This document shows, one piece after another, positions 13,510-30,007 of a stretch of DNA of 64,000 nt. The notes under the pieces are model-generated. The model saw nothing but the letters and a program-made list of their open reading frames with translations. It did no database searches and was not told the DNA's origin. The position numbers and the translations under genes are program-made. The DNA is from Anaerolinea thermophila (GTDB lineage: Bacteria; Chloroflexota; Anaerolineae; Anaerolineales; Anaerolineaceae), in contig NZ_DYHZ01000002.1 in assembly GCF_020723905.1 (NCBI RefSeq), positions 124,001 through 188,000 on the forward strand. Reading direction: 5' to 3'. Numbering within the stretch: position 1 is the first letter of the stretch; each line of letters begins with the position of its first letter.

Positions 13510-13543
13510 TGCCCCCGCCTTCTCCGGCGGGGGCAAATTTTTT
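13510..13543 (+). terminator. Intrinsic terminator ending the sugar cluster
   Basis: A perfect 10-bp stem TGCCCCCGCC/GGCGGGGGCA, 6-base loop, then AATTTTTT, 14 bases after the GH8 stop. Confidence 0.92.
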
Positions 13544-13573
13544 ATGGGATGAAATTATCATAAAAATATCAGT

Positions 13574-13602: not shown

Positions 13603-13610
13603 AAATAGTC

Positions 13611-14534
13611 ATGAAAAGTTCTGCCTTACGGGGGGAAGTCAGAACGACGATTGCTGGACTTGGCGGAACAAACGGATCAATGAATGCCACACTCATTGCA
13701 ACATTGGGAACAGAGCCGCAGGGCGTCACCTGGATGCTGGACTGGCTGCTGGCGCGAGGCTTTGCCATTGGTGAAGTGCTTGTTCTGCACACTACCGCCA
13801 GCGTCATTGAACCTGCCCTGAACATCCTGCAAAACGAGTTTGCCGGGTCCTATCCCGGCATTCGCTATCGTGCCGAAGCCGTTCAGGGCGATGACGGTCC
13901 GATTCAGGATATCGCCTCGGAGAAGGATACCTGGGCTTTTCTGCGGGCAGTATATCGCGCCATTCGTCAGACCAAGCGCGCCGGCCGTGCGGTACATTTG
14001 AGCCTGACGGGGGGCAGAAAAACCATGGCAGTGTATGCCATGGTGGCGGCGCAGTTGCTTTTTGATGAAAACGACCGTGCCTGGCACATGATTTCTGAGG
14101 TGCACTGGTCGGGCGCCGTGCGGCGCATGCATGCCACGCCGCTGGATCGCTTTCAGGTCGTGTCGGTTCCGGTGGTGCGCTGGAGCGATGCTGCGGTGGT
14201 GCAGGTCTTGCTTGCCGAGGTGGACGATCCCTGGGAAGCCCTGCGCCGACAGCAGGAATTTACCCTGCAGGAAGTCATCCGGCGGCGGCGGGAGTTCTGG
14301 GACCATCACCTGACCCCGGCTCTGCGCGAGGTAGCGGAGTTGCTGGTGCGCGAAGGACTGGATAACGCCGAAATCGCCCGGCGGCTGCACAAAAGCGAGC
14401 ATACCATTGCCAATCAGTTAACGCGCATTTACCGGGCTTTTGAGGAATGGCGCGGCGCCCATACGGGGAAAGCGGGCGCCAGCCGCGCGGCGTTCATCGC
14501 CGAGTTTTCCTCGCTTTTTTCGGGTAGAGAATGA
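13611..14534 (+). CDS. CARF-domain protein (NE0113-like) with C-terminal LuxR-type HTH
   Basis: A 307-residue protein upstream of the type III-B genes. Residues about 24-200 are a CARF (Rossmann-like) domain related to the Cas_NE0113 family: a first strand NATLIATLGTEPQGVTWML and the ligand-loop motif SLTGGRKTM at residues 131-139. Such domains bind cyclic oligoadenylates made by Cas10. After a linker, residues about 235-280 form a LuxR/GerE-type helix-turn-helix (EVAELLVREGLDNAEIARRL, then HKSEHTIANQLTRIYRAF). No HEPN or nuclease motif is visible. It is predicted to be a second-messenger-responsive DNA-binding regulator, perhaps of the cas operon, whose first gene starts 100 bases downstream behind a palindrome. 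The ATG at 13680, just before the CARF strand, is an alternative start. It could also act as a ring nuclease or signal sink. Confidence 0.8.
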   Translation: MKSSALRGEVRTTIAGLGGTNGSMNATLIATLGTEPQGVTWMLDWLLARGFAIGEVLVLHTTASVIEPALNILQNEFAGSYPGIRYRAEAVQGDDGPIQDIASEKDTWAFLRAVYRAIRQTKRAGRAVHLSLTGGRKTMAVYAMVAAQLLFDENDRAWHMISEVHWSGAVRRMHATPLDRFQVVSVPVVRWSDAAVVQVLLAEVDDPWEALRRQQEFTLQEVIRRRREFWDHHLTPALREVAELLVREGLDNAEIARRLHKSEHTIANQLTRIYRAFEEWRGAHTGKAGASRAAFIAEFSSLFSGRE

Positions 14535-14551
14535 TAGGAAGAAATTCCTAT
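14534..14551 (+). promoter_or_regulatory. Candidate operator upstream of cmr1
   Basis: A perfect palindrome ATAGGAA-GAAA-TTCCTAT overlapping the last base of the CARF-HTH stop codon, 84 bases before cmr1. A second inverted repeat, CCCTGT-gatg-ACAGGG, follows at 14566-14581. No T-tract follows either one, so they look more like protein sites than terminators. Confidence 0.4.
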
Positions 14552-14634
14552 TGGAATGGGGAAATCCCTGTGATGACAGGGAAAGAAAAAAACTGTAACC
14601 TCGAAACCGGGTCGTTCGGAGAAAGGAGAGGATC

Positions 14635-15567
14635 ATGAGTGACTGGAAACAACAGGTCAGGGTGCAACTGGAGACGGTGACCCCACTTTTTTTGGGGGGT
14701 GCCGACCCGCGGGGCGAGCCGGAACTGCGCCCGCCGGCATTTCGTGGCGCCATGCGGTACTGGTTCCGTGCTGCCCTCGGTGGGGTGATCGGGGATAAAA
14801 ATATGGAGGGGTTGAGAAAGCTGGAGCGAGAGGTGTTTGGGGATGCAGAATACGGCTCACCCATCGCCATTCAGGTGCGGCAGAAACCTCTTGAATTTAA
14901 GGAATTTCCCATTTTGCCCCATAAAACCCCTTCAGGAAAACGTTGGGCGTTCAATCCTGGACAGCGATTCGAGGTCATCTTGCAAACCACCCGTCCTGTT
15001 GATCTCCTGGTGTGGGTGAATGCCTGCATGGCGTTCAACCTTGCCATCTGGTTGGGTGGTTTGGGGTTACGCTCCAGAAGAGGGGCAGGGAGTTTGCGGA
15101 TTGTATCGAGCACTGATCTTTCTCTGATTCCTGTTTTCCCTGATGATATAGAGAAAATTCAGAGGTTAATGAGAGTCATTATTCGCTCAGCACTGGAGAG
15201 AGGAAAATCTCTGGCACAAGCATATAGCGTTCCTGTTGCGTCTTCTCTGCCTTCTGCTCCAACCGATTTCCCATGTGCCGCACAAGGGGCAGATATTTAC
15301 TTTGTACAAGACTGGGCAAAGACCCCTCAGGACGCTCTGGCAAAAGTGATGAGCAAAATACCCAAAGCCGATTACCTGGGGGGCATTTCTCCACGCCAGG
15401 GTTCTCCTTTATGGGTAAATATCCTTTACGCTTCCCAATCCTATCACCTGCTGTTGACCGTCTTACCTTCCAGACTGGTTTCGGACAGGCACAATTACCA
15501 GAGTCTATCAAACGTGCTTCAGACTTTCGGTGGGCAAAAGATTGAAGTAAAGGGGTGGAACGTATGA
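14635..15567 (+). CDS. cmr1: Cmr1, type III-B RAMP subunit
   Basis: A 310-residue RAMP protein, the Cmr1 subunit that caps the 3' end of the Cmr complex and helps capture target RNA. The N-terminal block VRVQLETVTPLFLGGADPRGEPELRPPAFRGAMRYWFRA is diagnostic (ferredoxin-like fold, strand 1 then 'RG..R.WfRa' helix), and the glycine-rich segment GGLGLRSRRGAGS is the RAMP loop. AAAGGAGAGG precedes the ATG. It is the first gene of a co-directional block that runs through cas4. The stop overlaps the cas10 start (ATGA). Confidence 0.92.
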   Translation: MSDWKQQVRVQLETVTPLFLGGADPRGEPELRPPAFRGAMRYWFRAALGGVIGDKNMEGLRKLEREVFGDAEYGSPIAIQVRQKPLEFKEFPILPHKTPSGKRWAFNPGQRFEVILQTTRPVDLLVWVNACMAFNLAIWLGGLGLRSRRGAGSLRIVSSTDLSLIPVFPDDIEKIQRLMRVIIRSALERGKSLAQAYSVPVASSLPSAPTDFPCAAQGADIYFVQDWAKTPQDALAKVMSKIPKADYLGGISPRQGSPLWVNILYASQSYHLLLTVLPSRLVSDRHNYQSLSNVLQTFGGQKIEVKGWNV

Positions 15568-17303
15568 CTGACGCCGTGTTGATTTTCACTTTTTCGCCGG
15601 TACAGTCCTTCATTGCCGAGGCGCGGCGCAGTGAGGACCTGTTCAATGGGAGTGCTATCCTCTCGCGGCTGGCTCAAGCCGCAGGTGAGGTGCTTAAATC
15701 GGCGGGCGAACTGATTTACCCTGCCGGACTTCAGGGGAATGACGCTCCGAATGTGCTGGTTGCGCGTATCCCCGCAGAAAAGGCGCAGGAAATGGCAGAA
15801 AAGGCGCAGGATGCCCTGTTGAGCCGGTGGCAGGAGATTGCCGAAGAAGCCCGTCAGAATGCCCGTCTGGATGAAGATGACCTCTGGAAAAACATCTGGA
15901 ATCGCCAGATTAAAGAAACGCCGCCGTGGCAAATCTTCTGGGCATATGTGGAACAGACGTCAGGGTATAAGGAAGCCTACCGCCAAGCCCGCGACCTGCT
16001 GGAGCGCGCCAAACGAAGTCGTCTCTTTGCACAGAGCGAAGAAGAGGGGGAGAAAGATTCTCTGAGCGGTTCTCGCGCCGCCCTGCGCACGCAAAAAGAT
16101 TCCGCCCGCAAGTACTGGGAAGCCATGTCAAAGAAATCTCACATCTTACCTTCGCAGGTGCGCCCTGAAGGGAAGGAATTGCTCGACAGCATTGCCCTGG
16201 TCAAACGCTTCTGGGAAGGCGGGCAGCGGGAGTTTCCCTCTACCAGTACCATTGCAGCGTGGGATTTTTATCAATTGGCAAAGAAAAATGCGCCAGATGA
16301 ATTGAGAAAGTACCGGGAAGAATTGGATCGCCTGCCTCTTTACAAAGCGCGCAGGAAAGATCCAGATTTTCCCTACGATGGCGATCTGTTCTTCGAAGAA
16401 ACTCTGACCTCCCAGCGCATGAAGGACAGTTATAACGTGGAATTGGACGAGGAGACTCTTCAGAAGTTGCGGAAACTGCTTGAGGACCTTGTTCATAAAA
16501 CGGGGAAATCTCCCTCGCCGTACTACATGTTGATTCAATTTGACGGCGACGGTGTGGGCGCCAAGATTGACCGCCTGCTGGAACAGGCAGATGCCGAGGA
16601 AAAGCACCGCCGCTTCAGCCAGAACCTCGCCCGTTTTTCTGAACAGGTGCGTGAAATTGTGAAGGAAGAAACGGGTGGCTTTCTCATCTACAACGGCGGA
16701 GACGACGTGCTCTTCCTGGCTTCACGCGAGAAGGGGCTGGAACTTGCCAGCAACCTGGCAACAGCATACCGGCTTTCTGTCGGCGAAAGTCTGGGTATCC
16801 CCGCAACCGCCTCGGCAGGTGTGGTGATTGCCCATCATCTCACCCCGCTTGCCCGTGCCTTGACCCTGATGCGCGAAGCCGAAAAAAGCGCTAAAGCAGG
16901 TAAAAAAGATGATCTGGGCAATAAAGACATGGTCTGTGTGACGCTTGCCAGACGCGGCGGCGAGGCACTTTCTGCCCTCAGCCCCTGGGGAGGGGTGGAG
17001 AAATACAGCGCATGGCTTGAGGTTTTCCAGAATGACGAGGTCGCAGGCGTCTTCCCTTATGCGCTGGCGCGTGAAGCCGAAACGCTTCAGGCTTTGCAAC
17101 CCGAAGCCATGGTCAGCATGGTGGGTTATCTGTTCAACCGTCATTCGGGTGAGAAAGTCTCAAAAGAACGCAGGGAAATGTTGCTGGAGGGTTTGCTCGC
17201 CTGGTACAAAGCCATTGAGGAGAAAACGGGAAAGCCCGCACTTGGGGAAATCGCCCGCTGGCTGATCATTACCCGGTTTCTCGCTTCTGGAGGTGCAGAA
17301 TGA
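15564..17303 (+). CDS. cas10: Cas10/Cmr2, cyclase-type large subunit without HD domain
   Basis: A 579-residue type III-B large subunit, predicted to make cyclic oligoadenylates when the complex binds target RNA. The ATG at 15564 overlaps the cmr1 stop as ATGA and has AGGGGTGG in front; a GTG nine bases upstream is less likely. The sequence begins directly with the D1 palm-like domain (LIFTFSPVQSFIAEARRSEDLF), so no N-terminal HD nuclease is present. The second palm keeps the metal site DGDG near residue 327 and GGDD at residues 378-381. The region that normally holds a zinc ribbon (about residues 170-215, ending in ALVKRF) has no cysteines. The C-terminal domain is helical. It should signal but not cut ssDNA. 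Confidence 0.95.
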   Translation: MTDAVLIFTFSPVQSFIAEARRSEDLFNGSAILSRLAQAAGEVLKSAGELIYPAGLQGNDAPNVLVARIPAEKAQEMAEKAQDALLSRWQEIAEEARQNARLDEDDLWKNIWNRQIKETPPWQIFWAYVEQTSGYKEAYRQARDLLERAKRSRLFAQSEEEGEKDSLSGSRAALRTQKDSARKYWEAMSKKSHILPSQVRPEGKELLDSIALVKRFWEGGQREFPSTSTIAAWDFYQLAKKNAPDELRKYREELDRLPLYKARRKDPDFPYDGDLFFEETLTSQRMKDSYNVELDEETLQKLRKLLEDLVHKTGKSPSPYYMLIQFDGDGVGAKIDRLLEQADAEEKHRRFSQNLARFSEQVREIVKEETGGFLIYNGGDDVLFLASREKGLELASNLATAYRLSVGESLGIPATASAGVVIAHHLTPLARALTLMREAEKSAKAGKKDDLGNKDMVCVTLARRGGEALSALSPWGGVEKYSAWLEVFQNDEVAGVFPYALAREAETLQALQPEAMVSMVGYLFNRHSGEKVSKERREMLLEGLLAWYKAIEEKTGKPALGEIARWLIITRFLASGGAE

Positions 17304-18391
17304 GTATCCTGTTCATGCAAGCCGAAGATGTCTTACTGTTCCGTGATGGACGTCCCTTCAGTGCCGGCAGCGATCACGAGGCGCGCAGTCTTTTCCCGCC
17401 TCCGCCTTCGGTGATGCAGGGCATCCTTCGTTCGCATTACCTGGCGCATAAAAACATCCCGCTGGATCACTCGCCTCAGGCGGAAGCAATGATTTCTGAA
17501 CTGGTAGGCGATTCGGCAACCCCCCGGGGATTGCGTCTGCGCGGTCCATTCCTTGCCCGCCGCGAGGCAAACAGAATTATGCGCTATTTCCCCACCCCTG
17601 CAGATGCCTACCCCGGCGATCAGGATGCCCGGCAAATTGTTCCCATGAAGGTAGTGGAGAACCCCGGGAGATGCGTGTGGAAGAAGGAAACCCTGCCCTG
17701 CCTGCTGGAGAAGCCGAATGAGGTTATCACAAAAAACGCTCCGGGAGCATTCCTCAGTGAGGATGCATTGAAATCCTATCTGGAACAGGGCAGGGCTGTT
17801 ACGCCGGTCAAAGCCGCTGATCTGTTCGTCACCGAGCGGCGACTGGGCATTCAGACCGATTCTCAACGGATGTCCACCGTTGAGGGGATGCTCTACGAGG
17901 TGGAATTTGTTCGCCTGCGTGAGGATGCCGGGCTGGTTGTGGAACTGGTGGAGGGATATCCCGACTTTCCGCCTCAGGGAGTGATGCGTGCAGGCGGTGA
18001 AGGGCGCGCCTTACGCTATGTGACCCTGAAGGATGGAGAGGTTGCTCCGCTTTCGTGGGGCCACACCGGTGAACTTCCCCCGTTCTTCAAGGTGTATTTT
18101 GCCACCCCGGCGTTTTTCTCGCAGGGATGGAAACCCGCTTCGTGGGACTCTTTCTTCACCGGTAAGGTGAAACTGGAAGCCGTTGCCCTCTCACGCTATC
18201 AGACGCTGGGAGGCTTTGATTTGCTCAAAAAGGTGCAGAAGCCGGCGCGGCGTTATATCCCTGCCGGCAGTGTGTATTACTTCTCCCACACGGGAGGGGT
18301 GCAGTTGTCTCAGCAAGCCATCACCGAAGACGGAGCCGCCCTGGGTTTCGGACAGGTGATGATTGCTTCCTGGAAACCGGAATCAGCCTGA
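17300..18391 (+). CDS. cmr3: Cmr3, type III-B RAMP subunit
   Basis: A 363-residue RAMP that binds the crRNA 5' handle and pairs with Cas10 at the base of the Cmr complex. It is recognised by the start LFMQAEDVLLFRDGRPF and SLFPPPPSVMQGILRSHYL, by ALSRYQTLGGFDLLKK, and by the closing glycine-rich ALGFGQVMIASW. The ATG overlaps the cas10 stop (ATGA), showing translational coupling. Length is normal for the family. Confidence 0.92.
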   Translation: MSILFMQAEDVLLFRDGRPFSAGSDHEARSLFPPPPSVMQGILRSHYLAHKNIPLDHSPQAEAMISELVGDSATPRGLRLRGPFLARREANRIMRYFPTPADAYPGDQDARQIVPMKVVENPGRCVWKKETLPCLLEKPNEVITKNAPGAFLSEDALKSYLEQGRAVTPVKAADLFVTERRLGIQTDSQRMSTVEGMLYEVEFVRLREDAGLVVELVEGYPDFPPQGVMRAGGEGRALRYVTLKDGEVAPLSWGHTGELPPFFKVYFATPAFFSQGWKPASWDSFFTGKVKLEAVALSRYQTLGGFDLLKKVQKPARRYIPAGSVYYFSHTGGVQLSQQAITEDGAALGFGQVMIASWKPESA

Positions 18392-18418
18392 TCATTTGAT
18401 TTTTGGGAGGAAAAGACC

Positions 18419-19324
18419 ATGTTTAAAGCCAGACATTTGCTCTTCTTCTACGTCGAAACGCCCCTGCATGTGGGCGCCGGGCGTGCCAGCGCCAATGTGG
18501 ATTTGCCCATCCAGCGTGAACGGGTGACGCAGTATCCCATGGTGCAGGCTTCCAGCCTCAAAGGCGCTTTGCGGGCGGAGTACCGTCATCAATACAATCT
18601 CAAGGATGATTCCCATGAGGTGGAAGCCGTTTTTGGCAAAGCCGGAAGTAGCGGAGAAAACTGGGCGGGTGCCGTTTCTACCGGCGATGCCCGCATTTTG
18701 CTCTTTCCAGTGCGCTCACTGGCAGGCGTGTTTGCCTGGGTGACCAGTTTGCATGTCCTGGAATCTTTCCGCCGCGCAGCAGACCTGGTCGGACAACCCC
18801 TCCCGTGGACGTTACCTCAGGGTGAACCCGGTGCCGACTCCGCGTGGGTGGGCAGCAAATCGCAGGTGGTGGCACAGGGCAAGGTGGTTCTGGAAGAGTT
18901 CAGTTTCAGTGCCCAGCCCAAGGGCGAAGTGGACGCCATTGCCCGGTGGCTTGCCGCCAACGCTCTGCCTCAGGGGGAGGCTTTCCGTTACTGGCGTGAG
19001 ACTTTGCCCGGACGTCTGTGCATTTTGCCAGAGGATGCCTTCCGCGATTTCTGCCTCTATGGCACCGAGGTGCAGACGCATGTGCGCATTGACCCCGATA
19101 AGAAGACCGTTAAAGAAGGCGCACTGTGGACGGCAGAAAGTCTGCCTGCCGACAGCCTGCTCTACGCCCCGCTGATGGCAATGGATGTGCGCAACGGCAA
19201 AGACAGTCTAACAGCGCATGATGTCCTGAAACAGTTCAATTTCTTACAGGACGGACATATCCAGTTAGGTGGAGATGAAACCACCGGTCAGGGTTGGGTA
19301 GCGGTGAAAGTGTATGGAGGGTAG
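18419..19324 (+). CDS. cmr4: Cmr4, type III-B backbone RAMP and RNase subunit
   Basis: A 301-residue backbone subunit that polymerises along the crRNA and cuts target RNA every six nucleotides. It is recognised by LLFFYVETPLHVGAG at the start, the SLKGALRAEYRHQ helix, and STGDARILLFPVRSLAGVFAWVTS, the classic Cmr4 block. Asp28 in the loop ASANVDLPIQRE sits where the catalytic aspartate lies in characterised Cmr4 proteins, so RNase activity is predicted to be intact. GGGAGG precedes the ATG. Confidence 0.94.
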   Translation: MFKARHLLFFYVETPLHVGAGRASANVDLPIQRERVTQYPMVQASSLKGALRAEYRHQYNLKDDSHEVEAVFGKAGSSGENWAGAVSTGDARILLFPVRSLAGVFAWVTSLHVLESFRRAADLVGQPLPWTLPQGEPGADSAWVGSKSQVVAQGKVVLEEFSFSAQPKGEVDAIARWLAANALPQGEAFRYWRETLPGRLCILPEDAFRDFCLYGTEVQTHVRIDPDKKTVKEGALWTAESLPADSLLYAPLMAMDVRNGKDSLTAHDVLKQFNFLQDGHIQLGGDETTGQGWVAVKVYGG

Positions 19325-19328
19325 TGCC

Positions 19329-19709
19329 ATGACCGAAACAGTATCCAGACAACGTTCACTGGAGCAGGAACGCGCCGCTCATGCGTATGCGGCGGTGAAG
19401 AACGAAAAAGGGAAGAAGGATAAGGAATTGAAATCCCTTGCCCGCAGCGCTCCTGCCAGCATTCAGAGTAATGGCCTGGGGCAGACGCTGGCATTCTGGA
19501 AAGCCAGAAAAGAAGAACACCATCTGGCTCTGTACCACGCCCTTTCGGGCTGGTTGAAAAAGCAGTTGTCCTTGAAGGATGACCGTGACCTGCTGGAGTG
19601 GATTGCTACCGAAGCCACCAGCCTGCAGTACCGCCAGGCGACAGCCGAAGCCCTGGCGTACCTCAACTGGTACAAGCGTTTTGCTGAGGCTGAATTGAAG
19701 GAGGGGTGA
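19329..19709 (+). CDS. cmr5: Cmr5, type III-B small subunit
   Basis: A 126-residue all-helical small subunit that lines the belly of the Cmr complex along the target RNA. It is recognised by RSLEQERAAHAYAAVK at the start, SAPASIQSNGLGQTLAFWKA, and EATSLQYRQATAEALAYLNWYKRFAEAEL. The ATG at 19329 has GGAGG eight bases before it; an in-frame ATG at 19314 lies inside that ribosome site and overlaps cmr4. Confidence 0.93.
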   Translation: MTETVSRQRSLEQERAAHAYAAVKNEKGKKDKELKSLARSAPASIQSNGLGQTLAFWKARKEEHHLALYHALSGWLKKQLSLKDDRDLLEWIATEATSLQYRQATAEALAYLNWYKRFAEAELKEG

Positions 19710-19712
19710 TTG

Positions 19713-20633
19713 ATGAGCCCGAATGCTCCTCAAAGATATGGTAGTCCCCCGAATCGCCCCGCCGGGCAGGGTGGGGGCGGCAATCGCTCTCAGGAACCGG
19801 AATACCCCCTGCCGAAAGAGACGGTGGCGGTGTTTAAGGGCAGCCGGGTGAGCAACCCGGGGCTGGTTTTTGAGCGTTATATCCCTTTTATGAATAGGGA
19901 TAAAGAAAACCGGCGTCAGCAAGCCCTGGATCTTGCAAAAACTGCCCCGGATTCAGATGCGCTCCGGGCGGCTTATGCACGCTGGCGGGCGTTAGTGGAA
20001 GCCTGTAAAGCCCAAACCTTTACCCTCAAAACCGACTGGCGATTCATCCCCGGGCTGGGGCGTAAAACCGCCCTGGAAATTGGCTTTGGCTTTCACCGCT
20101 ACGGCTTTCCTTATCTGCCAGCCAGCAGCGTCAAGGGCATTGCCCGTACCTGGGCGCTGTTCGAACTGGCGTCGCTCCTTGAAATTGGCGAGGGCAAGTT
20201 GTTTGACCTTGACAGGACCATGGAAAAAGAAGAGGGCGAATTCCAGAAAGCCTTTGAGGCTTACAAGCCCTCGGATGAGGCTTGGGAACGGGCGAAAATT
20301 TTCCGTTGGGTGTTTGGCACGCTGGAGCAGGCGGGCGGCGCGGTGTTCTTGGATGCCATCCCTACTTCGGCTTTTCCGCTGGATATTGACATCATGAACC
20401 CGCACTACGCCCCTTACTATCAGGGAAAAGAACCTCCTGGCGACTGGCACAACCCGAACCCCATCACCTTCCTCGCCGTTCCAAAGGACAAAGAATTTGC
20501 TTTTGCTGTGGCATGGCGGCGCGGCGCTTCGCACCCCGAATTGCTGGAGCAAGCCAGCGCCTGGCTGAAAAACGGTTTGCGCGATCTTGGCGCAGGCGCC
20601 AAGACCAGCGCAGGTTATGGCTATTTCAAATGA
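19713..20633 (+). CDS. cmr6: Cmr6, type III-B RAMP subunit
   Basis: A 306-residue RAMP that occupies the 3' side of the Cmr complex next to Cmr1. After a disordered Gly/Pro/Arg N-terminus of about 40 residues it shows the Cmr6 blocks WRFIPGLGRKTALEIGFGFH, YLPASSVKGIARTWA, a D..P...LDIDIMNPHYAPYYQ stretch and the final LRDLGAGAKTSAGYGYF. The ATG at 19713 follows GGAGGGG; the in-frame TTG just before it is not needed. It is the last core Cmr subunit before the CARF nuclease. Confidence 0.93.
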   Translation: MSPNAPQRYGSPPNRPAGQGGGGNRSQEPEYPLPKETVAVFKGSRVSNPGLVFERYIPFMNRDKENRRQQALDLAKTAPDSDALRAAYARWRALVEACKAQTFTLKTDWRFIPGLGRKTALEIGFGFHRYGFPYLPASSVKGIARTWALFELASLLEIGEGKLFDLDRTMEKEEGEFQKAFEAYKPSDEAWERAKIFRWVFGTLEQAGGAVFLDAIPTSAFPLDIDIMNPHYAPYYQGKEPPGDWHNPNPITFLAVPKDKEFAFAVAWRRGASHPELLEQASAWLKNGLRDLGAGAKTSAGYGYFK

Positions 20634-20641
20634 GGTATCCG

Positions 20642-21553
20642 ATGATCCTGCTCTGTCTTTCCGGCGAACAACCCATTCCCAATCTGATTCCGGTGCGCTA
20701 TCTGAAACCGGCGCAGGCCTGGATTGTCCACACCTCTCTGGATGCCTCCCGGAAGAGCGCTGTGCGTCTGGCTGCACTCACGGATCACGCCCGCCTGTTC
20801 TTGATCGATGAGGGGTACCAGATTCCCCGTATTCTGGAGAGTTTGCTCCGCGAGGTGGGTGAGCCGGAGGAAGAAGTGGTGGTTAACCTGACTGGCGGCA
20901 CCAAACCGATGGCGCTGGCAGCGTTTGAACTGGCGCGCCAGCGCCGCTATCCGGTGGTGTATTACCAGACCGAAGGTCCCCGCGGGCGTGATCAAAAGAG
21001 CATGCTGTATCGGTATTCCTTTAACGGGCGGGGTGAATTGCAACTGGATGAGGGCTATCCCTGTGAACTGCCCGCACTGATTACGCTGGATGATTACCTC
21101 AAAGCCTATCTGGATGATTATCAGGAAAAGCCGCCTTCGGGCGCCTCTGGCGAACGGTTGGAAGATGCCATTGCTCAGGCTCTGAAGCCCCATGTGGATG
21201 AGATCAAACAGCGGGTTGTGCCTGCTGGGGTGAAAAATCAGGCAGAAATTGATCTTCTGGTGCGCTGTGGCAACCATGTGGGGGTGTTTGAAATTAAAAC
21301 CGGTGGCGAGGGCAGTGGCAAGCATGCTGTAGATCAACTCACCACCATCGCCGCCCGGGAGTATCTGGGAACCTATGCCGCGCGCTTTATGGTCACACAG
21401 GCCTCCATGGAAGACCGTTACAAAGCGCTGGCGAATGCTCTGCAGGTGACTGTCGTCGAACTGCGCGATTACCGGCCCGGCAGACCGCTCAGCCAGCGGG
21501 ATCGATACACCCTGTTCCAGAATGTCTCTGCCACACTCCCTGTTCGTGGATAG
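20642..21553 (+). CDS. can2: Can2/Card1-like CARF nuclease
   Basis: A 303-residue two-domain effector. The N-terminal CARF domain (DUF1887-like) opens MILLCLSGEQPIPNLIPVRY and has the ligand-loop motif NLTGGTKPM (residues 82-90), expected to bind cyclic tetra-adenylate. The C-terminal PD-(D/E)XK nuclease keeps E202, D204, E217 and K219 (AEIDLLV...VFEIKTGG). Characterised Can2/Card1 proteins become active against single-stranded nucleic acid or nicking of supercoiled DNA on cA4 binding. GAGG six bases before the ATG at 20642 favours this start; an ATG at 20630 overlapping the cmr6 stop is the alternative. Its place directly after cmr6 supports a role as the cOA effector. Confidence 0.9.
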   Translation: MILLCLSGEQPIPNLIPVRYLKPAQAWIVHTSLDASRKSAVRLAALTDHARLFLIDEGYQIPRILESLLREVGEPEEEVVVNLTGGTKPMALAAFELARQRRYPVVYYQTEGPRGRDQKSMLYRYSFNGRGELQLDEGYPCELPALITLDDYLKAYLDDYQEKPPSGASGERLEDAIAQALKPHVDEIKQRVVPAGVKNQAEIDLLVRCGNHVGVFEIKTGGEGSGKHAVDQLTTIAAREYLGTYAARFMVTQASMEDRYKALANALQVTVVELRDYRPGRPLSQRDRYTLFQNVSATLPVRG

Positions 21554-21562
21554 GAGGAATGC

Positions 21563-21946
21563 ATGATTCTGGTCAACTTCTCTCATCCTCTCTCTGCCGA
21601 CCAGATGAAACAACTGGAAACCCTGCTCGGTGAACCTGTGGAGCGCGTTGTGGAGGTGCACAGCCAGATTGAACCCGACCAGCCGCTTGCCCCGCAGGTG
21701 GCGGCAATGGTGGACCAGGCCGGGCTGAGCATGGAGGAATGGCAGAACACCCCTATCCTCATTAATCCGCCCGCGCTCAATTTCAGCGCTGTCCTGCTCA
21801 TTGCCGAACTGCACGGGCGGATGGGATACTTTCCCGCATGCCTGCGCCTGCGCCCGCTCAACGGCGCCATCCCGCCGCGCTTTGAGGTGGCTGAAGTGCT
21901 CAACCTGCAGAGCCAGCGGGATTCTGCCCGCCGCAGGCGGGCGTGA
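21563..21946 (+). CDS. csx15: Csx15-family type III accessory protein
   Basis: A 127-residue protein matching the small Csx15 family: ILVNFSHPLSADQMKQLETLLGEPVERV at the start, a middle PQVAAMVDQAGLSMEEWQ, and ILINPPALNFSAVLLIAELHGRMGYFP. Csx15 proteins are found almost only in type III loci and have a minimal CARF-like fold; a cyclic-oligoadenylate binding or degrading role has been proposed. Here it lies right after the CARF nuclease and could switch off or buffer the signal (inference). The Arg-rich tail (DSARRRRA) is unusual. GGAGG precedes the ATG. Confidence 0.82.
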   Translation: MILVNFSHPLSADQMKQLETLLGEPVERVVEVHSQIEPDQPLAPQVAAMVDQAGLSMEEWQNTPILINPPALNFSAVLLIAELHGRMGYFPACLRLRPLNGAIPPRFEVAEVLNLQSQRDSARRRRA

Positions 21947-21971
21947 TCCCCTCTTTACATGGAGGAAATCT

Positions 21972-23444
21972 ATGTCTGAGATGTCCTTTTCTCCCCCCGA
22001 TTACACCGGTCATCCCCTGCTGGATGTGGGGCTGGCAACCCTGACGGCGTTTGCCGGCAGAAAACGCCCTGCCCAACTGACGGAGGAAGACCTGCGCCTT
22101 GCGGCGGAGTACATCCGCGAAAATTACATCGTGGACCCGCTCAAATCGTTCCTGAATGTGGCGTTTCCTAACTCCGGGTTTACCAACCCTGCCTTTGAGA
22201 AACAGCCTGAAAAGCGCCGCCGGTACGCCGAAATTGTCGCCGGGGCTTTTACCGCGCCTCCCGGAACAGAGCGCGACCCGCTGACCGGCTTACCGGCGAC
22301 CGGGGTGCCGCTCAACCCCGATGGCGATTTGCCGCCCGGACGCACCTACCGCCAGCATGTGCCTTTGCTCACCGGCGTGGATGTGATTAACTTTCATCCC
22401 TACGGCGAAGCGGGCATCCCGCTTTCCGGAGTCAGTTTGCTGGCGTTTCAAATGCTCCCCATGGGGTGCGCCAAAGTCAGCGGGAAACTGCTGGCAGTGC
22501 ACAGCGACGACCCCGACCTGTTGCTCTACTTTGCCAAGACGTTCCTGAAAACGAACCAACAGGGCGTTAACGTGGCGCGCGCCGCAGGCGAGAAGAAACT
22601 GCCCGATACTGCCCCCCATCGCGCCCGCACCGTTTTGATTGAGCATCTCCTCAAGGCTGAGCACGAACTTGCCCGCCTTGAGAGCAACGGCGATGTGCCG
22701 GCTACCCTGACCGGCTACTACTTCACCAACAGCGGGCAGGGAGCCGAACTGGATATTTACCCCCTCCCGCTGGAAGTGGGCAGTTTCCTGAAAGTGGTGA
22801 TGAAAAATCCCGTGTTCCAGTCAGACTGGGAAGCCCTCACCGCCCGCGGCTGGCAGTTGACCCGCAAAGAAGGCGATATCCCGCGTTACAACCGCCTCTA
22901 CGAAGATCTCTTCTCCCTGCCCGAGGGTGCGGCGCGCTTCATCCGCCTGTATTTCCTGCGGAAACCCTCGCGCCAGATGGGCGCCGTGGATAAACAGGAC
23001 CCCACGTTAACGTACGATACCCGCCGCGAAGCGAACTTAATTTCATGGCGGTTGACCGAACTCTTTCTCAGAAAGGTGATGCTTATGGAAGATTCCCGTG
23101 TTCAATCTATTCGTGAACTGGGCGACGCTCTTGCTCAGTACATCCTCGATCGAAACGATCGAGGGGTGTTCAATGCTTTCTGGATGGCTCGCAATTACGG
23201 CGAACTGCGTGCGGTGCTTATCCGCGCTTCTGCCGCCGAGGTGCGCGCCGGACGCAAACCCCTCATCACCCTCGATCAATTCCTTGCCGTTTTCGAGCAG
23301 TCCGAAGGCGTCCCCTTTGCCGACTGGCGCCTTGGGCGCGATCTGGTGCTCATTCGCCTGCTCGAACAGTTGTATCAGAAGGGCTGGCTCCAGGCGCATG
23401 CCGAAGAACTGCCCGAAACCGCCCCCGAAGAAGAAAACTCGTAA
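21972..23444 (+). CDS. cas8b1: Cas8b1/Cst1, type I-B large subunit
   Basis: A 490-residue type I-B large subunit expected to recognise the PAM and help open target DNA. Cst1-like blocks: DYTGHPLLDVGLATLTAFAG, FLNVAFPNSGFTNPAF, YRQHVPLLTGVDVINFHP and the PLSGVSLLAFQMLPMG stretch. Typical Cst1 proteins have a CxxC...CxxC zinc site before RQHVPLLTG; here that region (about residues 85-125) has no cysteine. The start at 21972 follows GGAGGAAA; a longer in-frame extension would overlap csx15. The C-terminal 120 residues are helical and are preceded by an internal ribosome site and ATG (23085), the likely Cas11 start. A perfect hairpin lies at 23144-23164. Confidence 0.85.
   Translation: MSEMSFSPPDYTGHPLLDVGLATLTAFAGRKRPAQLTEEDLRLAAEYIRENYIVDPLKSFLNVAFPNSGFTNPAFEKQPEKRRRYAEIVAGAFTAPPGTERDPLTGLPATGVPLNPDGDLPPGRTYRQHVPLLTGVDVINFHPYGEAGIPLSGVSLLAFQMLPMGCAKVSGKLLAVHSDDPDLLLYFAKTFLKTNQQGVNVARAAGEKKLPDTAPHRARTVLIEHLLKAEHELARLESNGDVPATLTGYYFTNSGQGAELDIYPLPLEVGSFLKVVMKNPVFQSDWEALTARGWQLTRKEGDIPRYNRLYEDLFSLPEGAARFIRLYFLRKPSRQMGAVDKQDPTLTYDTRREANLISWRLTELFLRKVMLMEDSRVQSIRELGDALAQYILDRNDRGVFNAFWMARNYGELRAVLIRASAAEVRAGRKPLITLDQFLAVFEQSEGVPFADWRLGRDLVLIRLLEQLYQKGWLQAHAEELPETAPEEENS
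23085..23444 (+). CDS. cas11: Predicted Cas11b small subunit from an internal start within cas8b1
   Basis: In frame within cas8b1, AGAAAGG (23070-23076) lies eight bases before ATG 23085 (another ATG at 23079 is closer). Translation from 23085 gives 119 residues, MEDSRVQSIRELGDALAQYI..., an acidic all-helical protein of the size of Cas11 small subunits. Type I-B, I-C and I-D loci are known to make Cas11 from such internal starts in the large-subunit gene, and no separate small-subunit gene exists in this I-B module. Whether this start is used here is inference. Confidence 0.6.
   Translation: MEDSRVQSIRELGDALAQYILDRNDRGVFNAFWMARNYGELRAVLIRASAAEVRAGRKPLITLDQFLAVFEQSEGVPFADWRLGRDLVLIRLLEQLYQKGWLQAHAEELPETAPEEENS
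23144..23164 (+). repeat. Perfect hairpin within cas8b1/cas11
   Basis: CCTCGATCG-AAA-CGATCGAGG, a 9-bp perfect stem with a 3-base loop, 57 bases after the proposed internal Cas11 start. Such a strong structure in coding sequence could slow ribosomes or help initiation upstream. Confidence 0.5.
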
Positions 23445-23468
23445 ATTCAACACCAGAAGGAGGATCCT

Positions 23469-24548
23469 ATGTCATTTGTCACCGGTTTACTGCTGATTGA
23501 CGCGCCTGCGTCTGCGTTGAACAACCTGGGCAACATCCCCGGGAGCATGACCGAAAACGTGGTCGGGGTGAAGCACATCCCTACCCGTGAGGGCAACTAC
23601 CCCTACGTCTCTGCGCAAGCCTTCCGTTACTGGCTGCGCACCACCCTGGAACAGGGCAACTGGGGCTGGAAAGCCGCGCCGGTCTTCCGCGAAGCCAAAA
23701 TTGCTTATACCGACGCCAACCCCATCCTCTACTGGGATGATGATCTGTTCGGCTATATGCGTGCCCCCTCCAAAAAGACCGAAGCCGTTAACGCCCGCGA
23801 AGCCAGCGGTCTGGTGGCTCAGGCTACCCCCACTGCCGAAACAGTGACCCGCGTTTCGCCCTTCCGTGTCAGCACTCTGGTTTCGGTGGCGCCGGTGCGT
23901 CTGGTGGAAGATTTTGGCACCATGTCGCGCCACAATGGCGATCCTGTCCCGCACGGTCACCAGTTCTACCGCGCCACCCTGCAGGGGCTGTTCTCCCTCG
24001 ACCTGCATGCCGCCGGTACCTTTACCTACGCCGAGCGCACCGGCTACCTTAATCTGGATGAGGAACGCCGCAAACTGGCGGAGGAAAAGAAACTGGAGCA
24101 TCTGGAGAAGCACAAAGCCTACCGTCTGCCGTTGAAGGAACGGCTTCAGCGCGTGCGCGCCCTGCTGGAGGGACTGGCAGAACTGAACGGCGGCGCCAAG
24201 CAAGCCCTGCACTACACCGATGTCAGCCCGGATCTGATCGTTCTGGCGGTCACCCGCGGCGGCAACCATATTTTCGGGCATATTATCGGCACGCAGGGGG
24301 AACGCCCGGTGCTGAACCTGCCTGCCCTGCGCGAGGCGCTGGATGTCAACCGCGAGGACCTGCTTTCGGATGTTTACATTGGCTGGGTGCGCGGCTATCT
24401 GGATGCCGAACGCGAGAAACTGGAAGAAGCCCTCGGCGAAGCGGGCATGCTGGGCGACTGGAACGCCCGGATCCACCTCATCCATCCGCGCGAAGCCTGC
24501 GTGCGGCTGGCTCAGGAGCTGGAGGCGCACCCGGACTGGATGCAATAA
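23469..24548 (+). CDS. cas7: Cas7 (Cst2/DevR family), type I-B backbone
   Basis: A 359-residue RAMP backbone protein that coats the crRNA spacer in the type I-B Cascade. It is recognised by FVTGLLLIDAPASALNNLG, then KHIPTREGNYPYVSAQAFRYWLRTTLEQ, and the thumb block THHGSxD-like SRHNGDPVPHGHQFYRATLQGLFSLDL, all of the Cst2/DevR family. AAGGAGGA precedes the ATG, 24 bases after cas8. It overlaps nothing, but spacing to cas5 is only 15 bases. Confidence 0.92.
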   Translation: MSFVTGLLLIDAPASALNNLGNIPGSMTENVVGVKHIPTREGNYPYVSAQAFRYWLRTTLEQGNWGWKAAPVFREAKIAYTDANPILYWDDDLFGYMRAPSKKTEAVNAREASGLVAQATPTAETVTRVSPFRVSTLVSVAPVRLVEDFGTMSRHNGDPVPHGHQFYRATLQGLFSLDLHAAGTFTYAERTGYLNLDEERRKLAEEKKLEHLEKHKAYRLPLKERLQRVRALLEGLAELNGGAKQALHYTDVSPDLIVLAVTRGGNHIFGHIIGTQGERPVLNLPALREALDVNREDLLSDVYIGWVRGYLDAEREKLEEALGEAGMLGDWNARIHLIHPREACVRLAQELEAHPDWMQ

Positions 24549-24563
24549 ACGGGAGGGGTGCCT

Positions 24564-25283
24564 ATGCGCGCGCTGAAAATTGTCGCCGAAGGGCTCACCG
24601 CATCCTTCCGTTACCCCCATTTCATGATGGGTGTCCAGCCTACGTTTGAAATGCCCCCACCTGCCACCCTGTACGGGCATGTTGCCAGCGCCCTGGGGGA
24701 GTGGTTTGATCCGCAGGGGGTGCGCTTTGCCGTGCGTTTCGAATTCCGCCGCAAACAGGCAGATATCGAGACCACCTACCTGCTTACCCCTGCCAGTGGC
24801 AAAATGCCGGGCGACAAATCGTTCCCCAAGGCGCTGGAGGGTAACCCCAACCCCTTCCACCGCGAAATTCTCTACTTCCCGCGCCTGACGCTGTACCTGA
24901 ACCGCCCCGAATGGCTGGAGGCGTTTCGTCACCCGCGTTATGCCGTGTGCCTGGGGCGTTCGCAGGACCTCTTCACCTACCGCAGGGTGGAGGTGGTGGA
25001 CCTTGAGCCTGCCGATCACGTGGTGCTGGAGCATGCCCTGCTGCCCTATTCCTTTGCCGCCTACACGGCTGCCGGGCAGGCTGTGCTGATGCCCCGGTAT
25101 CTGGATTACCGGAACCGCCGTTACCCTGCTTTTGAACGGTATGTCATTCTGCACCGCCGGGTGCGTACGCGCGAGTTCACCCGCTATACCGGTCAGCCGG
25201 AACTGGAACCATGGTGGGCAGACCCCACCGAACCGGTGGCAGGCGAAGAGCGTGCCGGTGTGGTGTGGCTTTCATGGGTATGA
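24564..25283 (+). CDS. cas5: Cas5 (Cas5t type), type I-B
   Basis: A 239-residue RAMP that binds the crRNA 5' handle in the type I-B Cascade. It is recognised by LKIVAEGLTASFRYPHFMMGVQPTFEMPPPATLYGHVASALGE, the standard Cas5t N-terminal half. The ATG at 24564 follows GGGAGGGG; the GTG at 24558 lies inside that ribosome site. The stop overlaps the cas3 start as ATGA. Confidence 0.92.
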   Translation: MRALKIVAEGLTASFRYPHFMMGVQPTFEMPPPATLYGHVASALGEWFDPQGVRFAVRFEFRRKQADIETTYLLTPASGKMPGDKSFPKALEGNPNPFHREILYFPRLTLYLNRPEWLEAFRHPRYAVCLGRSQDLFTYRRVEVVDLEPADHVVLEHALLPYSFAAYTAAGQAVLMPRYLDYRNRRYPAFERYVILHRRVRTREFTRYTGQPELEPWWADPTEPVAGEERAGVVWLSWV

Positions 25284-27670
25284 AGACGGAAAAGCCCTGC
25301 GTTCCTGACGGTTTAGCCCACCTGTGGGCAAAGAGCCCTGCTCCCTCGCAACGACAGGGGCAGAGCCTGGTACACCATACCTGGGAGGCGCTGATGCGTC
25401 TGAGCGATCTGGCGCATCAGCGCCCCGGTCTCTCTGATCTCAGCGGACAGCCGCGCCTGTGGCATTTGCTTTTCTGGGCGGTTTTCCTGCACGACTGGGG
25501 CAAAGCCGCCCAGGGTTTTCAACGTCTTCTACGTGGAAAGGAACGCCGCTGGCAGTTTCGTCACGAAGTGCTCTCGCTGGCGTTTGTAGACTGGGTTTCT
25601 TCGGGGCTTTCCGGGGAGGAAGTTGCCTTTCTGGCGGCGGCAATTGCCACTCACCACAAGGATTTTGACGAAATTGAGGGCTACCTCGAAGAACAGGAGG
25701 AACCCGATTATGACCCTCTGAACCTTATGCTGGCGGAGGTGTCGCCGGAGGATGCCACCGCTCTCTACCGCTGGGTGGAAACCTGCGGTGAGGATTGGAT
25801 CGATGCCCTGGAAATGCGCCCTCTGGGGGTGACCTGCCCTGCCCTGCCTCCGCTGGAACAGGCTCTTTCTCTGCTTACCCCGCAGGCGGTGCGCCGTCAT
25901 CTGCATCGTCTGGAATCCTTCCTGCGCCGGTGGGAGGATGACCCGCCCCCTGTAGAAGACCTGCGCCCGGGCATTTTTCTGCGCGGATTTGTCCTGCAGT
26001 CCGACCATCTGGCTTCGGCAGGATGGGGATCTTTACCGGAAGCGCGCCTGGCTCCCGAAGCAGTTCTGGAGGCGCTGGCTCTACCTTCCCGCGGTTTGTA
26101 TGCTCATCAGCGCATTGCTGCGCGTACTTCCGGGCATGCTCTGCTGCTGGCGCCTACCGGCACGGGCAAAACCGAAGCCGCTTTGCTCTGGGCGGTTCAT
26201 CAACGCCTGCCGCGCCTGTTTTACACCCTGCCGTACCAGGCAAGCATGAATGCCATGTACGACCGTCTCAACCGCATTTTCCCCGGACAGGTGGGGCTTC
26301 TCCACGGGCGCAGTACCATGGCGCAGTTCCAGCGCCTGATGGAGCAAGCCTACAGCCCCGAAGAAGCGGCGAAGACAGCCCGTTTACTGCACAATCGTTC
26401 CGGGCTGGCATATTACCCGGTGCGTGTGTTCAGCCCCTATCAGTTGTTGAAAGCCGCCTTTCAACTCAAAGGGCACGAAGCCCTGTGGAGCGATTTTTCA
26501 GAGGCGGCGTTCGTGTTCGATGAAATTCACGCCTATGAGCCCAACCGTCTGGCAATGATTACCGCCACATCGGGGCTTCTGGCGCGCTCGTACGGGGCGC
26601 GGTTTCTGGTGATGTCGGCTACCCTGCCTGCCCCGGTGCGTGCCGTGATTCAGGATACCTTTGGAGAGGTGGTTGCCATCCAGGCCTCCCGGCGGCTGCG
26701 CGCCAGCCTGCGCCGCCACCGTCTTTCTCTTGCCGATGGCAATCTGTTGGATGAGCATAACCTGCACAAAGCCCTTAATGAGGCGCTTCAGGGCAGGCGC
26801 ATCTTGATCGTCGCCAATACCGTGCGTCGTGCCCAGGTCATTTACCAGTGGATGCGCGACCATCTCCCTCCGCAGATTCCCGCCTTTCTTCTGCATGGTC
26901 GTTTTAACGGGCGTGACCGCGCCCGCAAGGAACGCGAAATGCTGGCAGTGGCGGGGCTGAACCCGGCAGAACGCCGCCCGCTGGTGCTGGTTGCCACTCA
27001 GGTGGTTGAGGTGAGCCTGAACCTTGACCTGGATATGCTCCTGAGTGACCCCGCCCCGCTGGAAGCCCTGCTTCAGCGCATCGGGCGCGTGAACCGTCTG
27101 GGACAGCGCGAACCTGCCCCGGTGATCGTCTTCCGCGGCATGGATGATGTCTTCCGGCGTGTGTACCGTCCGGTGGAACAGGTCACCCGCACCCTTGAGG
27201 TGCTTGATGAGGTTCTGCGTGTCGCGCATTGCGATAGCCTGCTTTTAGATGAAGAGCGCCTGCCGCGCTGGCTGGATGAAGTCTATACCGGTGAGGTGTT
27301 GACGGCATGGCGGCAGACCTTCGAACGCGCCCGGGTGGATTTCGAGCGCAGTTTCTTGCAGGCGCTTCAGCCGTTCCGTTCCAACCCCGCGCTGGCGGAT
27401 CAGTTTCACCATCTGTTTGACAGTACTGAAGTGTTGCCAGAAAGCCTGTACAATGAGTACCTCGAACTGCGCGACAGCGAGCGCGCCCTGGAAGCCGACA
27501 GCCTGCTGGTGCCGCTTTCGTGGGGCTTGCGCGCCATGCTTGCCGGGCGGGGATTGCTTCATCAGGGCGATCGCGATTTCCCCGATGTGGTCTCTGTGCC
27601 GTATGACGGGGAGTGGGGCTTGAACCTGGATGTTCAATCCCAAGAACAACCTGTGGAGGACCTGGATTAA
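25280..27670 (+). CDS. cas3: Cas3 helicase-nuclease (HD plus DExH)
   Basis: A 796-residue Cas3 that is recruited by Cascade to unwind and shred target DNA. The HD nuclease domain comes first (LVHHTWEA, HDWGKAAQ with H71-D72, ATHHKDFDE). The superfamily 2 helicase follows: Walker A APTGTGKTEAALLWA near residue 291, DEIH at residues 414-417, SATLP, and motif VI LLQRIGRVNRLGQ. All catalytic motifs are intact. The ATG at 25280 overlaps the cas5 stop (ATGA); ATG 25274 is also possible. This gives the locus a complete type I interference arm. Confidence 0.95.
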   Translation: MKTEKPCVPDGLAHLWAKSPAPSQRQGQSLVHHTWEALMRLSDLAHQRPGLSDLSGQPRLWHLLFWAVFLHDWGKAAQGFQRLLRGKERRWQFRHEVLSLAFVDWVSSGLSGEEVAFLAAAIATHHKDFDEIEGYLEEQEEPDYDPLNLMLAEVSPEDATALYRWVETCGEDWIDALEMRPLGVTCPALPPLEQALSLLTPQAVRRHLHRLESFLRRWEDDPPPVEDLRPGIFLRGFVLQSDHLASAGWGSLPEARLAPEAVLEALALPSRGLYAHQRIAARTSGHALLLAPTGTGKTEAALLWAVHQRLPRLFYTLPYQASMNAMYDRLNRIFPGQVGLLHGRSTMAQFQRLMEQAYSPEEAAKTARLLHNRSGLAYYPVRVFSPYQLLKAAFQLKGHEALWSDFSEAAFVFDEIHAYEPNRLAMITATSGLLARSYGARFLVMSATLPAPVRAVIQDTFGEVVAIQASRRLRASLRRHRLSLADGNLLDEHNLHKALNEALQGRRILIVANTVRRAQVIYQWMRDHLPPQIPAFLLHGRFNGRDRARKEREMLAVAGLNPAERRPLVLVATQVVEVSLNLDLDMLLSDPAPLEALLQRIGRVNRLGQREPAPVIVFRGMDDVFRRVYRPVEQVTRTLEVLDEVLRVAHCDSLLLDEERLPRWLDEVYTGEVLTAWRQTFERARVDFERSFLQALQPFRSNPALADQFHHLFDSTEVLPESLYNEYLELRDSERALEADSLLVPLSWGLRAMLAGRGLLHQGDRDFPDVVSVPYDGEWGLNLDVQSQEQPVEDLD

Positions 27671-28701
27671 TGGCAGACTTTCCCCTCACCTTTACCCGTT
27701 TGCGTTTTGAATGCCTTGCCGAAACCCCCCTGCGCTTCGGCGAATATCGTGCCGGAAGCAACCTGCGCGGCGCGCTGGTAAACATCATGCGGCGCGCCAC
27801 CTGCCCTCTGAGCGTTCCGGCGCTCCCCGGCGGGGTATCTGCCCCTCCCGACCCGCAGCATGTGGCAACCTGCCCGGTTTGCTGGCTGGTGGCGGCAAAC
27901 GAAAAGCCCGGTGTGGAGCGCCGTGGTTACATTCTCACTCCTCCGCTGGACCCGGTGCCATCTTACGCTCCGGGTGAGCGGTTTGTCTTTCACCTGACCC
28001 TCGTGGGCGAAGCCCAGCGCTTCCTGCCCTACTTTGTTCTGGCAGTGCCTGAAGCCGGACGCATGGGAATGGGTGCCGGACGGGGGCGTTTTGCCCTGCG
28101 GCGCATCCTTGCTGAGCGCCTTGACGGCAGCGAAGATGTCCTTCTGGAAGAGGGCGAAACGGTCCTGCGACCGGATGTTTCAGTCCAGTCTCATCGAGAT
28201 GTGCTTGCTCGCGTTGACCGGTTGCTCCCCCGGGATGCTGCCGGTGGGGTGCTGGAACTGCTCCTGCACTTCCTCACCCCCCTGCGGCTCATCTGGAATG
28301 AGCGGCTGGTCAAATCCCCCGATTTTGCGGTACTCTTTGCCCGTTTGCTCGAACGGGTGGATGAACTGGCTGTCCAGTTTGCCGGCGGGGGGCGGCGCCC
28401 CGCACAGGAGGTAGAGCGTCTCCAGAATTGTGCTTTGCAGGTGCGCCTGATCGAACAGAATACCCGCTGGGTAGAGGTTGCCAGCGGCTCCAGCCGTACC
28501 CAAACGCAGACATGGCTGAGCGGCATAGTCGGAACTGCCCGGTATGCCGCGCCTCTGGCTGTGTGGCGCGAACTGCTCCCCTGGCTGGTGTGGGGCGAGG
28601 TGGTGCAGGTGGGCAAGGACACGGTAAAAGGCAACGGGGTGGTGCACATTTGGATGGAAGGGGGCGTCTGTGGCGATTATTCAGCATCTGATCGCCGATG
28701 A
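27670..28701 (+). CDS. cas6: Cas6 pre-crRNA endoribonuclease
   Basis: A 343-residue RAMP of the Cas6 C-terminal family (PF10040-like), predicted to cut the pre-crRNA within each repeat. The N-terminal half has a cysteine pair (CPVC), and the C-terminal half carries the family pattern SGIVGTARYAAPLAVWRELLPWLVWGEVVQVGKDTVKGNGVVHIW, ending in a glycine-rich loop. The ATG shares bases with the cas3 stop (TAATG). The gene overlaps the cas1 start by 32 bases. As the only cas6 in the window, it should serve both the I-B and III-B complexes. Confidence 0.88.
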   Translation: MADFPLTFTRLRFECLAETPLRFGEYRAGSNLRGALVNIMRRATCPLSVPALPGGVSAPPDPQHVATCPVCWLVAANEKPGVERRGYILTPPLDPVPSYAPGERFVFHLTLVGEAQRFLPYFVLAVPEAGRMGMGAGRGRFALRRILAERLDGSEDVLLEEGETVLRPDVSVQSHRDVLARVDRLLPRDAAGGVLELLLHFLTPLRLIWNERLVKSPDFAVLFARLLERVDELAVQFAGGGRRPAQEVERLQNCALQVRLIEQNTRWVEVASGSSRTQTQTWLSGIVGTARYAAPLAVWRELLPWLVWGEVVQVGKDTVKGNGVVHIWMEGGVCGDYSASDRR

Positions 28702-29719: not shown

Positions 29720-29731
29720 GCGAGGAAAACC

Positions 29732-30004: not shown

Positions 30005-30007
30005 AGA

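Follow-up and report, generated by a model that had tools for sequence, protein, structure and literature searches.

A CARF-HTH protein as a candidate cyclic oligoadenylate-sensing activator of the adjoining type III-B CRISPR operon in Anaerolinea thermophila

The closest described counterpart of the protein considered here is Csa3 of archaeal type I-A systems, a CARF-wHTH regulator in which a CARF sensor and a DNA-binding domain are likewise combined beside CRISPR genes. Palindromic Csa3 sites lie by promoters (CAPPa; PMC8699464), and Csa3b is reported to repress some CRISPR promoters and to activate cmr genes (PMC8844856). DNA binding by Csa3a in vitro was independent of cA4; one study found it specific, the other nonspecific (PMC8844856, PMC8699464), and Csa3b bound one promoter about 10-fold better with a cA4 analogue, so that the feedback of the type III cyclic oligoadenylate (cOA) alarm on transcription is unsettled. 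Among bacteria, CalpL/CalpT/CalpS turn a cOA signal into transcription through the cA4-triggered release of a sigma factor (PMC11229360), but they employ a protease and an anti-sigma factor and not a regulator that binds cOA directly. Type III outputs include transcriptional regulators and HTH domains (PMC12669027), and CARF proteins of the NE0113 family were predicted to regulate transcription already in 2014 (PMC4012209). A literature search by title or the start of the abstract found no paper on the operator described below; the 2020 CARF classification may show a CARF + HTH pair.

The gene lies in a 64,000-nt stretch of Anaerolinea thermophila DNA (GCF_020723905.1, NZ_DYHZ01000002.1, positions 124,001-188,000 of the forward strand), which we call the window. 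Unlike Csa3, its product is bacterial, carries an HTH that is NarL/sigma4-like and not winged, and is encoded ahead of a type III operon whose inferred promoter is sigma70-like; the Csa3 profile (TIGR01884) reaches 20.6 bits, below its cut-off of 60.2. The protein shares with the Cas_NE0113/Csx14/Crn1 family the CARF domain (PF09623, 123.9 bits, E 1e-35, residues 35-216; cut-off 23) and the ligand residues, but it has an HTH, is without the catalytic Ser of Crn1, and stays below the cut-offs of the Csx14 (TIGR03642, 75.3 bits against 90.35) and Crn1 (NF040581, 35.1 bits against 125) profiles. With the NarL/LuxR-family activators (NarL, LuxR, FixJ and VpsT) it has a modelled HTH fold in common, although a CARF sensor takes the place of the receiver or autoinducer domain and the GerE profile remains below its cut-off. 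The lux box sits near -42.5, as do the candidate sites in the present loci.

The CARF-HTH gene and its neighbourhood

The gene, its domains and its surroundings are as follows.

13510..13535, + strand: intrinsic-terminator-like hairpin with a T run, separating the CARF-HTH gene from the GH8 gene upstream of it
13611..14534, + strand: CARF-HTH regulator gene, an ORF of 307 aa whose start may be 13680
13713..14258, + strand: NE0113-type CARF domain, residues 35-216, with conserved ligand residues D100, G135, R136 and K137
14304..14435, + strand: NarL/LuxR-fold HTH, residues 232-275, with recognition-helix residues 267-271 ANQLT
14635..20633, + strand: type III-B effector genes cmr1, cmr2/cas10 (GGDD intact), cmr3, cmr4, cmr5 and cmr6
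20513..21553, + strand: Card1/Can2-like CARF protein with a nuclease-like C-terminus, presumed effector (CARF_Card1, 47.1 bits; cut-off 24.6)
21563..21946, + strand: csx15 (166.9 bits; cut-off 35)
21801..30619, + strand: type I-B and adaptation genes cas8b1, cas7, cas5, cas3, cas6, cas1, a 90-aa ORF and cas4

Translation may begin at 13680 (residue 24) instead of 13611, because residues 1-22 have a pLDDT below 50 in the structure model and because the frame of Anaerolinea thermolimosa opens just 8 codons ahead of the matching Met (L001, 9977 against 10001). A preliminary description of this DNA had proposed an NE0113-like CARF domain with the motif SLTGGRKTM, joined to a GerE/LuxR HTH and accompanied by no HEPN or nuclease domain. 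The CARF assignment is borne out by the PF09623 match and by the motif, which is located at residues 131-139, and a Pfam profile search up to E 1 listed no HEPN or nuclease family in the protein. The HTH assignment holds at the level of the fold, as the proposed structure prediction brought out, but not as a sequence-family call. The C-terminal domain is modelled by AF2 (pLDDT 86.2) with the NarL/GerE four-helix fold, and its first-ranked Foldseek match is the NarL-DNA complex 1je8 (TMt 0.83, rmsd 1.3, probability 1.00, but E 0.12), with nothing at E 0.001 or better; structures of sigma region 4 match it likewise. In Pfam, this C-terminus passes the cut-offs of HTH_38 (28.9 bits; 27) and Sigma70_r4_2 (26.8 bits; 25.7), and the GerE/LuxR profile (PF00196) gives 19.5 bits, below 23.5. 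In Foldseek the full model lies closest to CARF structures of Cad1 and of the Crn1 type; Csa3 comes at rank 34.

Profile searches place cmr1-cmr6 directly downstream, in agreement with the adjoining type III-B operon described before. On the Card1/Can2-like protein, the NERD and Card1_endonuc profiles remain below cut-off. The 90-aa ORF (29732-30004) we tentatively take to be cas2-like from its position. Because all genes lie co-directionally on the + strand, the cmr operon, the type I-B genes and the adaptation genes, and hence both interference modules, could possibly be carried by one transcript.

The mechanically called cas8b1 ORF overlaps csx15 at 21801-21946, and its true start is probably later. 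The CRISPR array at 30748-40747 is very long, with 135 copies of one repeat family. Its last two repeats (40567-40747) lie within two near-identical 90-nt units (98%) and have a CCCCCCATTCGGGGGG hairpin inserted inside the repeat; an apparent decayed third unit follows from about 40750. The units bearing this hairpin are perhaps an array-end element or a terminator.

Tandem dyads and promoter geometry

The palindrome ATAGGAA-GAAA-TTCCTAT lies at 14534-14551, ahead of cmr1, and overlaps the CARF-HTH gene as had been noted, its first base being the last base of the TGA stop codon (14532-14534). Perfect inverted repeats with 7-base arms and loops of 0-10 occur about 1.2 times per kb of the window outside the CRISPR array (nested ones counted apart), and a single copy therefore proves little. 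The palindrome stands above chance because it is conserved in relatives. Five of these, found among genome contigs, align with the protein over a span that begins at residue 20-24, reaches residue 303 or beyond and takes in the HTH; identity is 52-79%, the closest being A. thermolimosa (79%) and Thermanaerothrix daxensis (70%). Close type III-B relatives keep the palindrome in its place between the CARF-HTH stop codon and the cas operon, with letters changed on both arms (ATAGGAAGAAGTTCCTAT, TGGGAAGAAATTCCCA, AGTAGAGATCTACT and others), and the conservation check proposed earlier thus came out in its favour.

Of 396 genomes sampled from the class, 132 carry PF09623; in a phylum sample, which overlaps the class sample, 49 of 301 do. 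Part of the PF09623-bearing genomes contributed to set 1, made up of 80 stretches together with L001-L005 and L014, and part to a held-out set of 60 additional stretches, of which 20 came from elsewhere in the phylum, outside the class. In set 1, CARF-HTH proteins of at least 100 bits were kept and two identical proteins removed. Of these, 92 were aligned with the window protein, 78 had sufficient sequence downstream and a recognition helix free of gaps, and 71 remained after dereplication at 85%; L004 was removed manually, as were the second copies in L045 and L046. The held-out set yielded 61 matches, 10 of which were dropped for redundancy, short downstream sequence or HTH gaps; among the 51 used, the HTH alignment is doubtful in a few and the helix of one cannot be read. 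In loci with 2.5 kb or more behind the gene, a type III gene was detected on the same strand within 2.5 kb downstream in 48/53 cases of set 1 and 23/41 of the held-out set; over the same distance upstream, no type III gene was detected on that strand in those loci. The held-out loci are more divergent, and 18/41 had no detected type III neighbour within 2.5 kb downstream; divergent type III genes may be missed, because the profiles were grown only from the window's genes.

Perfect 6-4-6 dyads occur in set 1 in 22/71 downstream gaps, as against 4/68 upstream, 6/71 mid-gene and 0/60 far regions, all of 200 nt. On the upstream count, autoregulation of the CARF-HTH gene at its own promoter was considered and rejected. 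Class-consistent site pairs have a start-to-start spacing of 22 bp (19 cases) or 23 bp (8 cases), and any other spacing was seen once. Measured downstream from the axis of the last site, the best -10-like hexamer begins at 30 bp in 19 loci, at 31 bp in 4 and at 29 bp in 3; it lies at 52-53 bp in 10 loci, all ten of which had just one scoring site. If the -10 box is at -12 to -7, the distances of 30 and 52/53 bp place the sites near -42.5 and -65 of the inferred promoters, as would be expected for class II activators.

Since the classes and spacings had been read from set 1, the test was redone letter-blind and on the held-out loci. An architecture-supported dyad was defined as a 16-bp 6-4-6 dyad that has either a TATAAT-like -10 at a distance of 30, 52 or 53 bp or a partner at 22 or 23 bp. 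Set 1 contains 23/71 (shuffle mean 1.24, maximum 5), a count that is post hoc because the spacings were found in this set. The held-out loci, as the independent test, gave a small signal of 6/51, compared with a shuffle mean of 1.17 and a maximum of 4 in 100 shuffles (in an earlier run, 6/51 against 0.84 and 4 in 200). Overall, 29/122 loci carry such a dyad (shuffle maximum 7), and the control regions of the same loci gave 1/117, 2/122 and 1/107. A laxer -10 raised the counts to 37/71 and 13/51 (shuffle maxima 7 and 6), with 3/117, 6/122 and 2/107 in the control regions. Even under the permissive -10, the dyad is absent from 72/122 loci. Among the used loci from outside the class, 2/16 have an architecture-supported dyad. 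The distance from dyad to -10 over the 122 loci is 52 in 12, 53 in 6, 30 in 5 and 41 in 5, with a mean of 0.5 loci for distances other than 30, 52 and 53. A dyad-dyad distance of 11 (11 loci) stands out along with that of 41, and both are tentatively read as arising from a false dyad formed between paired sites. The shuffles, and the permutations used below, ignore the tree.

Applied to the window, this geometry gives the following candidate sites.

14535..14550, no strand: proposed distal operator TAGGAAGAAATTCCTA, the core of the 14534-14551 palindrome, centred at about -65 of the inferred promoter
14558..14573, no strand: proposed proximal operator GGGGAAATCCCTGTGA, from the spacing rule, centred at about -42.5
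14573..14578, + strand: -35-like ATGACA, from the comparative promoter table
14596..14601, + strand: weak -10-like TAACCT, 17 bp past the -35, from the same table

The window is less tidy than the family pattern, with a perfect distal dyad, a proximal half-site and a poor -10. The proximal site has a good left half-site and a degenerate right half; it was placed by position only, and in the dyad scan it gives no scoring dyad on its own. A strict sigma70 scan of 13400-14700 found no promoter, the -35 and -10 listed above included, and the window promoter therefore rests on comparison. A further perfect dyad, CCCTGTgatgACAGGG at 14566-14581, overlaps the inferred -35, and A. thermolimosa and T. 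daxensis have a dyad with 5/6 pairs in roughly the corresponding position. It is possibly the site of another regulator.

In the 3.29-Mb genome, the pattern TAGGAAN4TTCCTA is matched exactly once and with one mismatch at two places. If up to two mismatches are allowed, it has 47 matches and the reversed control pattern 153. With a single exact match and a control that matches more often, there is no sign of other targets, and a wider regulon in the same genome was set aside.

Co-variation of recognition helix and half-site

The same genome encodes a second CARF-HTH (36% identity) on C5, also ahead of a type III operon. Its recognition helix reads EQHLR, and its site GGGGAAAACCCGCATGACA lies in the last codons of the gene, with a -10-like TACACT, seen by eye, 17 bp past it. 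This site pattern has one exact match genome-wide and four matches with three mismatches. The type III operon of this locus (L039, C5:300501-320500) has cas10 (GGDD), csx15 and cas1 nearby. Because the two regulators differ in both helix and site, the comparison suggests that they are insulated from each other.

Across loci, the similarity of helix residues 267-271 correlates with that of the half-sites (r 0.485, 50 loci, 0/5000 permutations), and it does so among pairs below 45% identity (r 0.383, 0/5000 permutations), although these significances are overstated because the permutations ignore the tree. The 50 loci are those with an architecture-supported dyad under the laxer -10, and their half-sites were picked letter-blind; from the window, this blind choice took the 14566-14581 dyad and not TAGGAAN4TTCCTA. 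Control residues 209-213 gave r of about 0, and overall identity was related more weakly to half-site similarity (0.39, and 0.30 for pairs below 45% identity). A first blind test with a noisier choice of dyads had given r 0.175, with 11/5000 permutations as good. Examples of the pairing are ANQL with TAGGAA, D[ST]HKT with TCAGAG, E.HLR with TACGGG, HAHKT with TTGGAA and DSHL with TCCGG; in some loci, an N[ST]HK helix is paired with TCAGCA. The class-by-half-site matrix takes its half-sites from the very loci it describes and therefore serves as description only. On the held-out loci, prediction by fixed classes did not reach significance (9/18 against a permutation mean of 7.6, 1145/5000 being as good), for which the loose half-site set of class C may be one reason.

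Proposed mechanism and alternatives

We propose, with a probability of roughly two in three, that CARF-HTH is a cOA-sensing class II-type activator that amplifies its own type III-B operon. The protein would be a presumably dimeric transcription factor controlling the adjoining operon. The ligand of its CARF domain would be cOA, most likely cA4, supplied by Cas10 of the same operon; the GGDD motif is intact in Cmr2 of the window and in the C5 Cas10 of the same genome. The NarL/LuxR-type HTH would bind two dyads 22-23 bp (two helical turns) apart, which stop immediately short of the -35 on its upstream side; bound at about -42.5 and -65, it would recruit RNA polymerase. Basal Cmr complexes meeting target RNA would produce cOA, and CARF-HTH would then raise the expression of cmr1-6, of the Card1-like effector and perhaps of the downstream I-B and adaptation genes, closing a positive feedback loop.

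Comparative sequence data support the domain make-up, the tandem operator, the fixed -10 spacing and the co-variation of helix and operator, and the predicted DNA target of CARF-HTH is well supported by them. Activation would be the mode of control rather than repression, and the dimeric state, promoter use and transcript extent are presumed. The preliminary description had suggested transcription control of the CRISPR locus. Comparison supports this and refines it: the palindrome is probably the distal member of a tandem pair, and it falls at activator positions of the inferred promoter.

A repressor could act on the same tandem operator, with cOA, or its loss, releasing or tightening the hold on the cas promoter. 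The proximal site abuts the -35, and Csa3b represses several CRISPR promoters, for one of which the cA4 analogue raised its affinity about 10-fold (PMC8844856). We nevertheless consider repression unlikely. The dyads, two helical turns apart, are upstream of the -35 and share no more than one base with it. Furthermore, the -35 boxes are weak, with a mean of 2.7/6 matches against a background of 1.5 in a 51-locus promoter table that was permissive (seven distances, -10 matches from 3/6) and served as no test. Weak -35 boxes are typical of activator-dependent promoters.

The operon regulator might instead sense a ligand other than cA4 (a cOA of another size, a linear product or SAM-AMP) or act independently of any ligand. 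Residue correspondences were taken from the alignment and from the residues named in PMC10018336, where D75, R105 and K106 of Crn1 bind cA4 and S11 (Sso2081) is the catalytic Ser; they equate to D100, R136, K137 and E35 in the window protein. Positions 34 and 35 are T34 and E35 in this protein and mostly G and Q in the family, unlike Crn1, and the CARF pocket has therefore changed. The equivalents of the cA4-binding residues are, however, mostly kept in the 71 HTH-bearing proteins (D in 64/71, R in 66/71, K or R in 71/71). The operon also encodes a Card1-like protein, and known Can2/Card1 proteins respond to cA4 (PMC9704534). A different ligand, or none, thus appears rather improbable.

That the CARF domain is a Csx14/Crn1-like ring nuclease and the HTH incidental is very improbable. 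The Csx14 and Crn1 profiles do match, below their cut-offs, and Csx14 has been placed in the Crn1 family (PMC12409355). However, the catalytic position 35 is Ser in none of the 71 HTH-bearing proteins (Q 48, E 15, K 4, G 2, R 2), against 7/14 NE0113 copies without an alignable recognition helix, and helix and operator co-vary. In these 14 copies, one of which (L064) runs off its contig end, position 34 is Thr in 9/14. We read this as a split of the NE0113 family between sensors with an HTH and ring-nuclease-like copies without one. Copies of the latter kind are sited between type III and type I cas genes in L040, L041, L042, L044 and L053. Such copies include L040:5465-6472, L041:15016-16053, L042:15019-16023, L043:13341-14381, L044:4426-5457 and L053:9623-10633; in L040, L041, L043, L044 and L053, the DNA past the stop codon reads, by eye, MG(V/T)YHLMGLGRS.

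The least credible alternative is that the palindrome, which would fall within a read-through transcript of the CARF-HTH gene, forms an RNA hairpin (an attenuator, terminator or RNA motif), since an Rfam search of 13400-14800 found nothing over it up to E 5 (and three chance-level matches elsewhere), its spacing is fixed relative to the inferred downstream -10, and its letters follow the recognition helix.

The activator reading can be extended tentatively to the phylum, at somewhat less than even odds: cOA receptors of Chloroflexota may each activate the type III operon of their own locus directly, as class II activators; they would be insulated by helix/operator pairs and divided into Ser-less sensors with an HTH and Ser-bearing ring nucleases without one. 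The locus offers a bacterial counterpart to Csa3 whose operator is short and whose promoter geometry is fixed, and the helix/operator variants form a natural series; binding, the effect of the ligand and specificity are therefore directly testable. The candidate operator and promoter could also yield a cOA-responsive promoter for reporters. If this extended reading is true, the type III alarm would be self-amplifying, and each locus would be insulated from the others in the same cell.
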